Shown here in pieces: positions 6,807-62,149 of a stretch of 64,000 nt of DNA. The stretch comes from Synechococcus sp. PROS-U-1. Lineage in GTDB: Bacteria > Cyanobacteriota > Cyanobacteriia > PCC-6307 > Cyanobiaceae. The notes below the pieces were generated by a model. The model was not told where the DNA came from, ran no database searches, and saw nothing but the letters and a program-made list of their open reading frames with translations. Where the stretch lies: the NCBI RefSeq assembly GCF_014279755.1, contig NZ_CP047951.1, positions 1,550,001-1,614,000 of the forward strand, given 5' to 3'. Numbering within the stretch: position 1 is the first letter of the stretch; each line of letters starts with the position of its first letter. Made by a program: the position numbers and the translations under genes.

Positions 6807-7775
6807 TCAGAACAAGAAGCGGAAGCGCTGGCTGCTGGCCTCACTGGCATCAGCGCCACTGCTCTTTGTGGCTGGCCATTCCGTATCCAGATAGCTGATT
6901 CCGCCTGCATTGAACGGCACCGCCTTCAAGCTGGACGCGTTGAGATCAGTGGTGCCCATGGCGGTGATCAAGCCACCCAACTCCATCGGCCCGAGATCCG
7001 TCTCCAACGCCTGACCCGCAGCCGCAATTAAAGCCGGCAAGCGAATCAGATTCTGCGGTTGTTTCATCCGCTCGAACAGGCCTTTCAAGGCCAACTGCTG
7101 CCGTTCCAACCGGCCAAAATCGCCGCGGCCATCGTTGCGCCAGCGCAAAAAGCCCTCCAGATCCTTGCCCTTCAACAGCTGAGGCCCCGGCTGCAAATCG
7201 ATCACCAGGTTCTGACTTCGATCGACGTAATACAGCCGCTTGGGCACATCCACCTCAATCCCCCCCACCAGATTGGCCAGGGTTTCGATCGCATCCAGGC
7301 GCACCACGATGTGATGACGGATCGGACGATTCATCAGTCGCGTCAACTCCCGCTCCACCGCCTCCACACCGCCGTAGGCCATCAGTGCATTGAGCTTCAT
7401 GCCTCCGAAGCCTTCCGCATCGATGTAACTGTCGCGGGGAATCTGGGTGATCGTCGTGGTGGTGCCGTTCACCCGCACCGTGAAGATCACATCGGTGTTG
7501 CTGCCGGTGCGATCACGGCCGAGCACCACCACCTCCCTCGCACCAAAGCCGGTCCAACCGGCGAATGGATTGGCGAGCGGCGCTGGTTGGGGCGGCACCA
7601 CAGATTGATCTGCCGTTGTTGGCGATTCGGTGTTGATCAACCGGCTCAGGGGAACCGACAGCATCAAGCCGCCACTGAGACCAACCACCACAGCCAGAAC
7701 CACCGGCCATGTCGCGGCCTCTGAGGAAGGCTTGGCAGGAGGGTCTTGTGCCATGGAATACACGCTATTCCGCAT
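6807..7775 (-). CDS. LytR-CpsA-Psr (LCP) family protein
   Basis: LCP enzymes transfer lipid-linked glycopolymers to peptidoglycan at the outer face of the cytoplasmic membrane. One transmembrane helix lies near residues 24-44, followed by the LCP domain: VVLGRD, the IPRDSY box with its arginine, the VxLDAIxxLxxxxGG stretch and the FxRWRNDGRGDFGRLERQ motif, all typical. At 322 residues it is close to the short cyanobacterial forms. An internal start seven codons in (MAQDPP) is possible. It converges on the RTX gene and lies downstream of the antiporter gene on the same strand. The substrate glycan is not evident. Confidence 0.85.
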   Translation of the reverse strand: MRNSVYSMAQDPPAKPSSEAATWPVVLAVVVGLSGGLMLSVPLSRLINTESPTTADQSVVPPQPAPLANPFAGWTGFGAREVVVLGRDRTGSNTDVIFTVRVNGTTTTITQIPRDSYIDAEGFGGMKLNALMAYGGVEAVERELTRLMNRPIRHHIVVRLDAIETLANLVGGIEVDVPKRLYYVDRSQNLVIDLQPGPQLLKGKDLEGFLRWRNDGRGDFGRLERQQLALKGLFERMKQPQNLIRLPALIAAAGQALETDLGPMELGGLITAMGTTDLNASSLKAVPFNAGGISYLDTEWPATKSSGADASEASSQRFRFLF

Positions 7776-7821
7776 CTTGGCGTGCTCATCCCTTCTCCGG
7801 TAGGGGGGGCACGCCGCCCTC

Positions 7822-9975
7822 CTAAACCAGGGGATCGCTGATCACCATCGAGGCACAGGGGAGCTGACGGATCAATTTGCTGATGCGATCACTGCCGGGA
7901 ATCGGTAGACCCGCCACCCGCCGACGCTGGGTGCGCAGGATCACCAGATCGTGCTCACGGCTGAGTCGATGAATGGCCCCATCGATGCCGGGTCCCCGCA
8001 CAATCACGATGTGGAACCGCTCCGCCGGAATCCCCGGCGGTCGCCAGCGGATCAACTGCTGCTCCATCCAGTGACGGTCCTGCCCGCTGAAGCGTGGGTC
8101 ATGGACATGCAGCAAGGTGATCCGGAGGCGCTGATCCTCCGGAGCAGACGTAATCACCCGCAGAGCTAATTCAAATTGCTCGCGAGCGCTGGCGGAGAGA
8201 TCTTTGATCGGAACGAGGATCCGGCCCAGGCTGCTGCCTGAGTCGCGGCCAAGGTTCACCACCACCACCGGACAATGCGCCGTGCGGCAGACCCCATCGA
8301 CGATGTCCCCCATCAGCCAGGCCCTCAGCTGATCCGTGCGCGCGGCGCCGATCAACAACAGATCTGCAGCCTGTTCCAGCGCGGTGCGGCTCATGCCACC
8401 GGCGATGTCCTCATCCAGCCGCAGCAGGCTGCGGGTGGGCACGGCCAACTGAGCGCCAATGGTTTCCGCCGTACTGAGCCGCCCACGCGCCGCGGCAACG
8501 GCCCGGTTCAAACCACCGCGCATCTCCTCAAGGCTGGGATTCACCATCGCCAGGGGAAGCAGCAGGCCTTCAGCTCCAGACGACCCCCGCACCAGGCGAG
8601 CCGCCATGCCTAACAACCCCTTCTCGGTGCTGGGATTGGCCACCGGCACCACGATGCGCAGAGGGCGCTGCACCACCTCGTTGACGCCATCCAGCACCGC
8701 CGCCTCCTCACCGAAGCTCACCGGCACCCCCTCCGGACTCGGATCCTTGAGCCGGGTCACCGACTGCTCGGTAAGGATCGGCCCGAGGGTGGCCGTCACC
8801 ACCATCACCGCCAACACGCTGTTGAGCACAGTCTGATTGAGCAAACCTGCCTGGTAGCCGATGAAGGCGGTGGCCAGCGTCGCCGCCACCTTGGGCATCG
8901 TCAGCGACCACATCATCAGGATCTGGGATCGGCGATAGCCGAACAGCAGTCCGCTAATCCAGGACGCCAGACCCTTGCCGCCGATCGCGCCCACCAGCAT
9001 CAACGCGGTGAACTGAAAATTGCCCAGGCTCTGACCCAGGCTGCCCAGATCCAGCAGCAATCCCAGATCAATAAAGAAGATCGGGATGAACAGCACACCA
9101 CCCACGAAGATCACCTGTTCCTTCACCCGGCCTTCAGGCAGAACGGAATTCACCGCCAAACCGGCCAAGAAGGCACCGACAATTTTCTCCACGCCAGCCA
9201 GCTCAGCCCCGAGAGACGCCAGGAACAAGGCCACCAGAACGGCAAGCACCATCCTGTTTTCATCGCTGATGCCCCGCAGCACCAGGCGCCGGCCCAGCCA
9301 GCGGATACCGATCACCACCACAAGGGCGAAGACGCCGATTTTGAGCAGCAGCAGGCTCAGGCCCATGCCACTGAGGTTTCCCTGACCCAAGCCCAAACCC
9401 ACCGCCAACAGCAGCAGGGCAACGATGTCGGTGAAGATCGTGCTGCCCACGCTCACCACCACCGACTCATCCTTCTGGGCCCCGTAGCTCCGCACGATTG
9501 GGTAGCCCAGGGGAGTGTGGGTAGCCATCAAGGCGCCGAGCAACAGGCACGACACCGAGGCAAAACCAGCCAGAAGGCCAATCGATACGCCTGTCCCCAC
9601 GCCGATCAGCAGGATCAGCAGTCCATAAATGAAGGAGCGGCGCTTGACCCGGTTGAACTCCTCAAGGTCAATCTCCAGACCCATTGTGAACAGCAGGTAC
9701 ACCGCCCCGAGATCCGAAAGCAGCCGTACCGTTTCGCTGGTGCTGTCGACCCAGTTCAACGCATGGGGCCCCACCACCACGCCGGCTGCCAGCAATCCCA
9801 CCAGATCAGGCAGACCGACCCGTCGGATCAACGGCGGCACCGCCGCACTGATCGCCACCAACAACGAAAACACCCCGAGGGGGTGATGCATGACATGGCT
9901 AATCGAGGCCTGCATGGCCATGGCTGCACCGCCAGCTTGCGGACCCAGCATGGTCACCACAGCTACAGCCAACAA
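7822..9975 (-). CDS. CPA2-type cation/proton antiporter with C-terminal universal-stress domains
   Basis: The first 400 residues hold about 12-13 hydrophobic helices of the Na+(K+)/H+ exchanger fold (KefB/NapA-like), including GDLVGLLAAG-like and GAFLAGLAVNSVLPE segments. The cytosolic C-terminal half (about 430-717) has two UspA-like domains; one carries the nucleotide-loop pattern GAARTDQ...GDIVDGV...CPVVVV. The product exchanges monovalent cations for protons across the cytoplasmic or thylakoid membrane, presumably for salt or pH balance. It starts eight bases after the ABC transporter stop and is probably cotranscribed with it. The ion is not predictable from this sequence. Confidence 0.85.
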   Translation of the reverse strand: MLAVAVVTMLGPQAGGAAMAMQASISHVMHHPLGVFSLLVAISAAVPPLIRRVGLPDLVGLLAAGVVVGPHALNWVDSTSETVRLLSDLGAVYLLFTMGLEIDLEEFNRVKRRSFIYGLLILLIGVGTGVSIGLLAGFASVSCLLLGALMATHTPLGYPIVRSYGAQKDESVVVSVGSTIFTDIVALLLLAVGLGLGQGNLSGMGLSLLLLKIGVFALVVVIGIRWLGRRLVLRGISDENRMVLAVLVALFLASLGAELAGVEKIVGAFLAGLAVNSVLPEGRVKEQVIFVGGVLFIPIFFIDLGLLLDLGSLGQSLGNFQFTALMLVGAIGGKGLASWISGLLFGYRRSQILMMWSLTMPKVAATLATAFIGYQAGLLNQTVLNSVLAVMVVTATLGPILTEQSVTRLKDPSPEGVPVSFGEEAAVLDGVNEVVQRPLRIVVPVANPSTEKGLLGMAARLVRGSSGAEGLLLPLAMVNPSLEEMRGGLNRAVAAARGRLSTAETIGAQLAVPTRSLLRLDEDIAGGMSRTALEQAADLLLIGAARTDQLRAWLMGDIVDGVCRTAHCPVVVVNLGRDSGSSLGRILVPIKDLSASAREQFELALRVITSAPEDQRLRITLLHVHDPRFSGQDRHWMEQQLIRWRPPGIPAERFHIVIVRGPGIDGAIHRLSREHDLVILRTQRRRVAGLPIPGSDRISKLIRQLPCASMVISDPLV

Positions 9976-40140: not shown

Positions 40141-40217
40141 CGGGGAGTGGCGCAGTTTGGTAGCGCGCTTGCTTTGGGAGCAAGATGCCGCAGGTTCGAA
40201 TCCTGTCTCCCCGACCA
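40141..40217 (+). tRNA. tRNA-Pro(TGG), intact; integration target
   Basis: Acceptor stem CGGGGAG/CTCCCCG, anticodon loop TTTGGGA (TGG at 40175-40177), T-loop GGTTCGAATCC and an encoded CCA are all present. Its 3' half plus the terminator recur at 43.7 and 54.8 kb, marking it as the attachment site of the island. Confidence 0.97.
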
Positions 40218-42821: not shown

Positions 42822-43005
42822 GTGAGGCGTTCTGAGCCTTTAAGACAGCAATCTCTGCTTGTAGCTCTTCAATCTTCTGAAGCAAGAGACTATTAGCTTC
42901 ATTCAGGTCTGCTGCCTTAATGGAGTCACCAACGTTGTAGGTAGGAATGACATCACCAGAAGGGCTAGGTGCTTCAGGTTCTGTAGATCGGCTTGAGGTG
43001 ACCAC
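42814..43005 (-). CDS. Small coiled-coil protein at the recombinase breakpoint
   Basis: A Ser/Pro-rich head (SSRSTEPEAPSPSGD) is followed by a clear leucine-zipper-like helix (LNEANSLLLQKIEELQAEIA VLKAQNASL). It overlaps the last 32 bases of the truncated recombinase in another frame. It could have replaced the recombinase 3' end by recombination. Confidence 0.55.
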   Translation of the reverse strand: MVTSSRSTEPEAPSPSGDVIPTYNVGDSIKAADLNEANSLLLQKIEELQAEIAVLKAQNASLI

Positions 43006-43519
43006 GTTGCACCGCCCAATTCAGAAAGCCATAGAGCTTCTGACGACTTGTCTGGCGCATCCGTAAGCCCTGTTCCCATTGCTTGAGGCACTCCATCGCC
43101 AATGCCTCGCCATCAACCGGTGGCTTACCTTCAAAGCAGACACGCAGGTTCTTCAGGACAGGCAGGTAGTTGTATCGCCACGTTGTGTCGCCAGCGTTGG
43201 GGATGAACTCCCGATATTTCTCAAACAGCTTGTTGAAATCCAGCTTCTGATGACTGCTGGAGGTGTCGGCTTTCTGTGCTGCAGCAGCAAGGGTGATCTG
43301 ACCACGGTTCCACCGCTTGAAGATCTGCTGAATGCGAGGGAGGGCTGAGCTGGCTCCCTCTTGAGACCAGGGGTAGATCAACATCACTGACCCATGGTCT
43401 TGAACCTCAAGTCGCATCCGCCCACGTGCATTGCGCACCTTCCATCCCGCGCCACAGGAGGTGCGAACCAATTCTCGAAAAGGCTTGATCCAGGTGGCTC
43501 TATCGACGACGCGTGGCAC
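42974..43519 (-). pseudogene. Tyrosine recombinase, N-terminal half only
   Basis: The 181-residue frame has the arm-binding and SAM-like core-binding portions of a phage-type integrase (RVVDRATWIKPFRELVRTSC; QIFKRWNRGQITLAAAA; DTTWRYNYLPVLKNLRV; FLNWAVQRGHLKPIY). It stops exactly where the catalytic domain with the R...HxxR...Y residues should begin. It reads away from the partial tRNA 155 bases upstream, the usual geometry of an integrase beside its att site. Confidence 0.8.
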
Positions 43520-43668: not shown

Positions 43669-43780
43669 CTCTCGCTTTAGGAGCAAGATGCCGCAGCTTC
43701 GAATCCTGTCTCCCCGACCACTTAAAAAGTCAGACCCCAACTGATATCTCCACCGCTCCATAAGGGGCGGTTTTTTATTG
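43669..43780 (+). repeat. Second att copy: tRNA-Pro 3' half plus terminator
   Basis: From GGAGCAAGATGCCGCAG through the CCA and the terminator it matches the tRNA-Pro 3' end with a few changes (G to C in the T-arm; loop ATAA). The left flank CTCTCGCTTTAGGAGC is shared with the third copy but not with the real tRNA, so it is the element's own arm. Confidence 0.9.
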
Positions 43781-48169: not shown

Positions 48170-48448
48170 TCACGCAAGCCAACGAGTAATCACGGTGCCT
48201 TCGTAGACATGACCAGAGGCTTCGACAATCGGCTTGGTCTCTGGGTTCGTGAAGATGTTGTAGAGGACGTCTTCGGGTCCTTGAAACATCACTGTCGCTC
48301 TTTTGGGGTCGTCCTTGCAGACACCAATAAAGAAGGTCTTTACTCCCATCTCGGCAAACATCGCTTGCTGCTCAGGAGCATTCATATGTGCGCGATATTC
48401 CTCAAACGTGTTGCTGAGCTTGAAGTCCAGAACAGTTGTCTCAGTCAT
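48170..48448 (-). CDS. DUF3764-family protein, copy 1
   Basis: The 92-residue product (TVLDFKLSNTFEEYRAHMNA, MGVKTFFIGVCKDDPKRA, GHVYEGTVITRWLA) has the ferredoxin-like dimeric barrel pattern of DUF3764, a cyanobacterial family without assigned function. A second copy at 61537 is more than 90% identical by eye, including about 60 bases upstream, so the duplication is recent. Confidence 0.85.
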   Translation of the reverse strand: MTETTVLDFKLSNTFEEYRAHMNAPEQQAMFAEMGVKTFFIGVCKDDPKRATVMFQGPEDVLYNIFTNPETKPIVEASGHVYEGTVITRWLA

Positions 48449-48482
48449 GGTTTGAGTGGTTCTAGTTCGCAATAGAACTGTT

Positions 48483-54764: not shown

Positions 54765-54876
54765 GGATCTCTCGCTTTGAGAGCAAAAAGCCGCAGGTTC
54801 GAATCCTGTCTCCCCGACCACTTAAAAAGGCAGTCCCCAGCTGAGATCTCCGCCGCTCCGCATGGGGCGGTTTTTT
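54765..54876 (+). repeat. Third att copy: tRNA-Pro 3' half plus terminator
   Basis: GAGAGCAAAAAGCCGCAGGT through TCTCCCCGACCA and the terminator (loop GCAT) match tRNA-Pro. The left flank GGATCTCTCGCTTT is shared with the second copy. After it, a further 220 bases repeat the segment downstream of the real tRNA-Pro. Confidence 0.9.
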
Positions 54877-57219: not shown

Positions 57220-57252
57220 AATAAAAAAACCCCACCATTTCTGACGGGGTGA
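57220..57252 (-). terminator. R1-type terminator hairpin after the GrrA gene
   Basis: Minus strand CCCCGTCAGAAATGGTGGGG with seven T. It is the terminal hairpin of R1 without the rest of the repeat, 16 bases after the grrA stop. Confidence 0.85.
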
Positions 57253-57267: not shown

Positions 57268-57648
57268 CTACCAATTCGCAAAGCCACGTCGCCCGCCACC
57301 GTTGCCCCAGGCACCTGAACCATTGCGCCAGCCACCACCACCGGCATTAGCGAAACCGCGACCGGCGTTAGCGAAACCGCCACCATTGCGCCAGCCACCG
57401 CCACCGCCGTTAACCCAGCCACGTCGATAGCCACCGTTAGCCCACCCAGCGATCTCAAGCGGTTGGTGCAGCCTTGCCTTCAAAATGTGCGACCAGCTGT
57501 CGTCACCTTGTGCAGCTGCAATGCGTTGCTCAATGCTGTTGTCAGCTTTTTGAATGGAATATGTTCCGGCCTCAGTGGCGCCAACACTGCTCCAGGTGCT
57601 GAGCAGGATCATTGTTCCAAGAAGGGTGGTTGGCTTCATTAGGGCCAT
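57268..57648 (-). CDS. grrA: GrrA-type glycine-rich RiPP precursor
   Basis: The 126-residue product has a signal-like head (KPTTLLGTMILLSTWSSVGA), a leader with SIEQRIAAAQ, and a C-terminal half of Gly with eight aromatic-x-Asn units (WAN, WVN, WRN, FAN, FAN, WRN, WGN, FAN). This is the layout of GrrA/OscA1-type precursors, in which the radical-SAM enzyme GrrM crosslinks Trp or Phe to Asn into three-residue cyclophanes. No radical-SAM gene lies in this window. The R2 leader lies upstream and an R1-type terminator follows. Function of the mature peptides is unknown. Confidence 0.85.
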   Translation of the reverse strand: MALMKPTTLLGTMILLSTWSSVGATEAGTYSIQKADNSIEQRIAAAQGDDSWSHILKARLHQPLEIAGWANGGYRRGWVNGGGGGWRNGGGFANAGRGFANAGGGGWRNGSGAWGNGGGRRGFANW

Positions 57649-57694
57649 TGAGCAGGTGAACCTCTGAAGTACTAGCCACGATGCAAGCGGCTGG

Positions 57695-57870
57695 TCATTG
57701 GTCAGATGGGACTGCCTTGAGTGTTCCCCGGACTTCTCAAGCAACAAAAAACCCGCGAATGTTGATAGCTTTAGGCGTGAGGTTTGATCGGGAAATGAAT
57801 AATGGACATATCAGAGCCCCATACTTTGTACTGCAGTCTCTTGTAATTCTTTCAGCAGCTCTGAATCCAA
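57695..57870 (-). repeat. R2 leader and degenerate R1 copy E upstream of grrA
   Basis: 57700-57747 is the R2 leader (TTGAGAAGTCCGGGGAACAC). 57748-57870 is a diverged R1: the terminator stem is short and the arms no longer pair well, but TTTGATCGGGAAATGAATAA and CTTGTAATTCTTTCAGC are recognisable. Confidence 0.6.
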
Positions 57871-61536: not shown

Positions 61537-61815
61537 CTACGCAAGCCAGCGAGTGATCACGGTGCCTTCATAGACATGACCAGAAGCTTCAACAATCGGC
61601 TTGGTCTCTGGGTTCGTGAAGATGTTGTAGAGGACGTCTTCGGGTCCTTGAAATATCACTGTCGCTCTTTGGGGGTCGTCTTTGCAGACACCGATAAAGA
61701 AGGTCTTGACTCCCATCTCGGCAAACATCGCTTGCTGATCAGGCGCATTCATATATGCGCGATATTCCTCAAACGTGTTGCTGAGCTTGAAGTCCAGAAC
61801 AGTTGTCTCAGTCAT
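61537..61815 (-). CDS. DUF3764-family protein, copy 2
   Basis: The 92 residues differ from the copy at 48170 at only a few positions (AYMNAPDQQ for AHMNAPEQQ; PQRATVIF for PKRATVMF). The identity continues about 60 bases upstream of the ATG and ends sharply. Both copies look functional. Confidence 0.85.
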   Translation of the reverse strand: MTETTVLDFKLSNTFEEYRAYMNAPDQQAMFAEMGVKTFFIGVCKDDPQRATVIFQGPEDVLYNIFTNPETKPIVEASGHVYEGTVITRWLA

Positions 61816-61888
61816 GGTTTGAGTGGTTCTAGTTCGCAATAGAACTGTTTTAACCAGCTTCAGGAGCCCAGCCCACTTGCCTCTGCAT

Positions 61889-62149
61889 TCAGCAGCGAGT
61901 AACGATGTGAGTGACAAGGTCAGCGCAGACCCACCGAACCAGCCCTGCATCGACATCAGCCACCTGGAACAGGGTCTGCACCTTCGGATCCCTGGCACCT
62001 CCATCGACGTGGATCACGTCAGCCATCCACCAGTCATCGGAATTACTGTCGCCACAGATGACTGTCATGCCTGCCTTCACCGACAAGAACACGGGCTGCG
62101 ACCACTCCTCTGAGCGGGTGAACGGAACAACGGAATGGTCGACCGACAT
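61889..62149 (-). CDS. DUF3104-like small protein
   Basis: The 86 residues include VFLSVKAGMTVICGDSNSDD, WWMADVIHVDGGARDPKVQT, LFQVADVDAGLVRWVCADLV, the pattern of the picocyanobacterial DUF3104 family as I remember it. The start MSVDHS is preferred; the ORF runs much further upstream without family similarity. Function is unknown. Confidence 0.75.
   Translation of the reverse strand: MSVDHSVVPFTRSEEWSQPVFLSVKAGMTVICGDSNSDDWWMADVIHVDGGARDPKVQTLFQVADVDAGLVRWVCADLVTHIVTRC

Follow-up and report, generated by a model that had tools for sequence, protein, structure and literature searches.

The 64-kb window analysed here (C1:1550001-1614000 of a complete 2.576-Mb genome, G000 in our set) contains an open reading frame, grrA2, which on the strength of its sequence is a genuine gene encoding a second GrrA-type triceptide precursor. 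We consider it probable that GrrA2 is a stand-alone precursor derived from a satellite operon without grrM, grrP2-grrA2, and that it is matured in trans by the only GrrM of the genome. The features on which this reading is built are collected in the table.

A single GrrM is encoded in the whole genome (TIGR04261, C1:1926729-1927817, scoring 588 bits where the cut-off is 310), 319 kb from grrA2 and directly behind grrP and a standard grrA (C1:1926265-1926663), with which it forms a cluster of its own (grrP-grrA-grrM, C1:1925448-1927817). Given one GrrM at this distance, which has its own grrA, the window gene is a second precursor, most likely one that would be matured in trans by that enzyme. 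The first-pass annotation had reported the maturase as absent from the window, and indeed no GrrM is encoded within the 64 kb, the only TIGR04261 match of the genome lying outside; it had also proposed a genome search for grrM and another grrA, naming as contrary evidence a genome without any GrrM, and that search returned one GrrM beside the standard grrA. The grrA2 locus lacks the adjacent grrM that marks a complete GRRM cluster, which leaves the GrrA-type status of the gene unaffected, and no grrM lies beside grrA2 in the sister genomes either. A third grrA candidate, at C1:2135476, is a weak match that overlaps other ORFs in other frames and was rejected as spurious.

Table. Features of the grrA2 locus and its surroundings (positions are those of the window).
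Feature	Position	Strand	Description
grrA2	57268..57639	minus	GrrA/OscA1-type precursor, 123 aa; full-length TIGR04260 match; orthologues in 11 other genomes of the genus
GrrA2 leader	57445..57639	minus	signal-like N-terminus and NSIEQRI...W...L segment common to standard GrrA leaders
GrrA2 core	57268..57444	minus	eight aromatic-x-Asn units, Gly-rich, Lys-free, ends FANW
5' leader of grrA2	57640..57700	minus	homologous to the grrP2 5' leader in sister genomes; apparent trace of a lost operon partner
R2 repeat	57701..57745 (core 57709-57730)	minus	upstream of the grrA2 leader; one of 9 genome sites
R1-type intrinsic terminator	57229..57250	minus	downstream of grrA2
tRNA-Pro(TGG)	40141..40217	plus	probable attachment gene of the variable island
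tRNA-Pro 3' copy, then copy of its terminator	43671..43720 (approximate)	plus	one of two such copies in the window
tRNA-Pro 3' copy, then copy of its terminator	54771..54820 (approximate)	plus	about 2.5 kb from grrA2

The gene had earlier been placed at 57268-57648, with no strand given; an in-frame ATG does exist at 57648, but it is not conserved among the orthologues, which share a start (MKPTT or MNPTT) corresponding to position 57639 on the minus strand. The protein starts with a signal-like stretch, MKPTTLLGTMILLSTWSSVGA, continues with the charged residues KADNSIEQRIAAAQGDDSWSHIL and ends in a core that is rich in Gly and contains exactly eight [WF]-x-N units (WAN, WVN, WRN, FAN, FAN, WRN, WGN and FAN). 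Shuffling the 58-residue core 200,000 times gave a mean of 1.36 units and a maximum of 6, with 0/200,000 shuffles reaching eight. The NCBIfam model for GrrA/OscA1, TIGR04260, matches the protein over its full length (E 3.6e-6), with a score of 27.5 bits that is just below the 31-bit cut-off; the orthologues in the sister genomes G009 and G026 score 56 and 76 bits, respectively. The earlier description of a GrrA precursor with a signal-like leader and eight units in a Gly-rich core is thus borne out. The Gly-rich precursor is probably disordered.

Enzymes of the GrrM/OscB type form a C-C bond between Trp C7 or Phe C4 and the beta-carbon of the Asn located two residues on (PMC11002830). With the GrrA/OscA1 precursors of such enzymes, GrrA2 shares the signal-like leader with NSIE-x-RI, the Gly-rich core, the W-x-N/F-x-N units and a C-terminal F-x-NW; it differs in its lack of an adjacent grrM, in its Lys-free core and in its sub-threshold family score. 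Its relation to the standard GrrA of its own genome is similar, i.e. the two belong to the same precursor family, are 44% identical in alignment and have eight units each, whereas the standard precursor lies in a cluster complete with maturase and has a Lys-rich core (from residue 61 on, GrrA1 sequences have 6-11 Lys and GrrA2 sequences none). At least 90% of 26 GrrA1 and GrrA2 sequences agree at the S-x-E-x-R-I, W, L and A columns of the leader; since the S-x-E-x-R-I, W and L columns are common to both types, one GrrM could plausibly recognize both, and the NSIEQRI...W...L segment is likely the region that GrrM recognizes. We envisage that grrA2 would be translated with its signal-like leader, that the single chromosomal GrrM would recognize the leader segment common to GrrA2 and standard GrrA and would link the aromatic ring with the beta-carbon of Asn within W-x-N and F-x-N units to give up to eight three-residue cyclophanes, and that the cross-linked product would then be exported. 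Among the prochlorosins, some precursors are encoded far from ProcM. Like the system proposed here, prochlorosin biosynthesis occurs in marine picocyanobacteria and employs a single enzyme, the promiscuous ProcM, for several precursors, of which there are many (PMC10783134); the prochlorosins differ in being lanthipeptides with Nif11-type leaders, in their enzyme and in having dozens of precursors rather than one extra.

GrrA2 is present in 12 of the 34 genomes of the genus, including the window genome, and the named relatives in another collection are single-cell and metagenome-assembled genomes of marine Synechococcus. In eight of the 12 (G002, G009, G010, G011, G012, G015, G024 and G026) grrP2, a second gene for GrrP, lies directly upstream of grrA2 with no grrM nearby, and its products match TIGR04262 at about 268-284 bits. 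The GrrP2 and GrrP1 proteins fall on separate branches and, as read directly from the sequences, GrrP2 begins with a lipobox-like start (LTACS or LAACS) and GrrP1 with a plain signal-like one. In the window genome and in G003, G005 and G029, the sole GrrP adjoins grrM and grrA2 stands alone. These arrangements suggest that grrA2 descends from a grrM-less satellite operon, grrP2-grrA2. In G003 the main-cluster grrP (C1:1753529-1754276) gives two partial matches that lie in different frames, and it may be broken.

Of the 19 genomes with a completeness of 90% or more, 13 have GrrM and six do not; GrrA2 is present in 6 of the former and in none of the latter, such that every GrrA2-bearing genome at this level of completeness has GrrM. 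With a Fisher p value of 0.063, uncorrected for ancestry, this association does not reach significance on its own, and shared ancestry confounds it. The GrrA2-bearing G010 and G012 gave no GrrM match, these genomes being only 53% and 77% complete, respectively.

The 60 nt ahead of lone grrA2 align with the 60 nt ahead of grrP2 in the sister genomes; in the comparison of G005 grrA2 with G002 grrP2, 42 of 57 positions are identical, the best of 100,000 shuffles reaching 29, and among the loci checked the element occurs solely ahead of lone grrA2 or of grrP2. The most economical account of this shared leader and of the absence of grrP2 is a deletion of grrP2, in the lineage of this genome, that brought the grrP2 leader directly in front of grrA2 and left a lone gene, now in a tRNA-Pro island behind R2. 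We rejected the possibility that the coding frame continues upstream through the leader, since the sister grrP2 leaders differ by 8-nt repeat changes that break the frame.

The first-pass annotation had the gene furnished with an R2 leader and an R1-type terminator belonging to the island. Both repeats are real, but the 60 nt next to the gene are the grrP2-derived leader, R2 lies farther upstream, and neither repeat is an island-specific mark, as both occur elsewhere in the genome. Five of the nine R2 sites are in the window (45827, 47607, 50976, 57709 and 61469) and the others are at genome positions 817381, 1114138, 1758653 and 1760150, often directly after a terminator. The R2 at C1:1760150 precedes a small unrelated ORF without a Pfam match, starting MTRDNRIALFLM / MTRDNRIALFLMEELVAAL, from which it follows that R2 and the grrA2 leader are homologous only up to about the ATGACC motif; decayed sequence similar to this ORF (MTRDNRIALFLMEELVAAL...) follows R2 at other sites. 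Ahead of grrA2, R2 is clear in G000 and G005 and weaker in G003 and G029, with a similar stretch before the second G029 copy, and it was therefore probably acquired in the ancestor of these four related genomes. Of the 11 genome sites of the R1-type terminator, 4 fall within the window, where chance would predict 0.12; a terminator of this type is also found downstream of grrA2 in G005, G003, G029 and G009.

The neighbourhoods of grrA2 differ among strains, with at least six distinct settings, so that the GrrA2 copies do not all occupy a single conserved site in the genome. Settings are shared by G003 and one of the G029 copies, by G010, G012 and G015, and by G024 and G026, and the island around the second G029 copy has genes in common with the region that follows the window. 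In the window, tRNA-Pro(TGG) and its two 3' copies bound about 14 kb of variable DNA. In other genomes, grrP2 of G011 is preceded at about 100 nt by a tRNA-Arg 3' remnant, the full tRNA being found at 4 kb; G003 and G029 have a tRNA-Ala 3' remnant roughly 1 kb upstream, G026 has tRNA-Ser 1.1 kb upstream, and G005 has a tmRNA at a distance of about 5 kb. No tRNA mark was found near the grrA2 locus of G009. Attachment-type tRNA 3' repeats near the grrA2 cargo are a feature of tRNA-integrated (tycheposon-like) islands, and the observations fit a role of grrA2 as cargo of such islands, with which it may have moved. An element of this kind would bring its own tyrosine integrase; an ORF at 42974-43519, beside one of the tRNA-Pro copies, resembles an integrase fragment by eye and has no Pfam or PHROGs match. 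With respect to carriage by phages, grrA2 gave no DNA match in phage records and no relative in viral contigs. Two duplicated genes within the island (48170-48472 and 61537-62004; 300 nt, 96% identical) were also noted, the second of which matches DUF3764.

The earlier proposal of a second precursor in a movable setting holds, in that the standard grrA is elsewhere in the genome, the neighbourhoods vary by strain and tRNA marks are near. A broader interpretation, which we put forward tentatively, is of a mobile satellite RiPP, i.e. a precursor that has no maturase, may or may not be accompanied by a periplasmic binding lipoprotein of its own, moves among the tRNA islands of marine Synechococcus and relies on the resident GrrM. 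In other cyanobacterial genera, grrP-grrA pairs or lone grrA genes lie away from grrM in G069 (C8), G080 (C12: 6075-7055 and 7052-7468) and G095 (7769-8212), suggesting that satellite precursors without grrM arose more than once. Several further arrangements were observed: in G093 (7661-7966 and 8000-8419) a grrA is beside an apparent C-terminal part of GrrM (101 aa), with no full GrrM found in this single-contig genome; G061 (8564-9458) has two tandem grrA ahead of one grrM; and duplicated grrP-grrA pairs occur at the main cluster of G017 (C48), G020 (C1:2271884-2275753) and G024 (C29).

The pattern of substitution implies that GrrA2 is under purifying selection, strong on the satellite cores and looser in the lone lineage. 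For pairs carrying the satellite operon, core dN/dS is 0.03 (G002-G011), 0 (G011-G015), 0.025 (G009-G002) and 0.023 (G026-G024), with whole-gene values of 0.07-0.16 for pairs of the satellite lineage; G015 and G012, a very close pair, differ too little for a judgement. Within the gene, constraint is highest in the core. For the lone lineage, the comparison of G000 with its nearest relative, G005, gives a dN/dS of 0.32 for the whole gene, above the satellite-lineage range, and of 0.24 for the core. The higher value speaks for a rival reading, in which lone grrA2 became functionless after the loss of grrP2 and is being lost from an island in which it is kept by chance. Both G029 copies are frameshifted, one by a single-base deletion after MKPTTL and the other by a frame change between leader and core, and lone grrA2 is therefore dispensable in at least one strain; G021, G025 and G028, of the same GrrM clade, have no GrrA2. 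The looser constraint and the two broken copies in one genome make decay a serious rival; we nonetheless think it unlikely, since G000-G005 still departs from neutrality (p 0.0017 for the whole gene, p 0.007 for the core), the window copy is intact, as are those of G003 and G005, and all eight units have survived in-frame expansions and deletions, the lone-lineage core having grown from six units to eight via in-frame changes.

GrrA2 might instead be expressed as an unmodified, secreted Gly-rich protein or be modified by another radical SAM enzyme, the genome having 17 radical SAM matches and two non-GrrM proteins that exceed the Pfam SPASM cut-off. Only one of the 17, GrrM itself, belongs to the cyclophane-forming GrrM/OscB family, and the leader motif and aromatic-x-Asn units of GrrA2 match those of the substrate encoded next to GrrM; with its constraint concentrated in the core, we regard such a fate as quite improbable. 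Gly-rich repetitive DNA can yield long spurious frames, of which one was encountered here, but a chance ORF is refuted by orthologues with a conserved leader, synonymous-biased change and a constant motif, and by the full-length family match.

The preferred reading, that of a second precursor served in trans by the resident GrrM, has consequences both for how triceptides are found and for how they are studied. Triceptide clusters are usually sought next to the maturase, and satellite precursors such as grrA2 are therefore missed; in the openly accessible literature, outside which most subscription journals lie, we found no account of distal GrrA precursors, and the grrM-less operon grrP2-grrA2 is described here from genome sequences. 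To our knowledge, no function has been established for a product of any member of the GrrA family, and we know of no characterization of GrrP, on the role of which the eight genomes with grrP2-grrA2 and the four without grrP2 offer a direct comparison. If GrrM does mature GrrA2 in trans, a strain would obtain more than one peptide from a single enzyme, and the Lys-rich GrrA and Lys-free GrrA2 would constitute a natural test of GrrM recognition. If, moreover, the mobile-satellite interpretation is true, strains of marine Synechococcus may acquire or drop a second cyclophane peptide while the enzyme that makes it stays in place.
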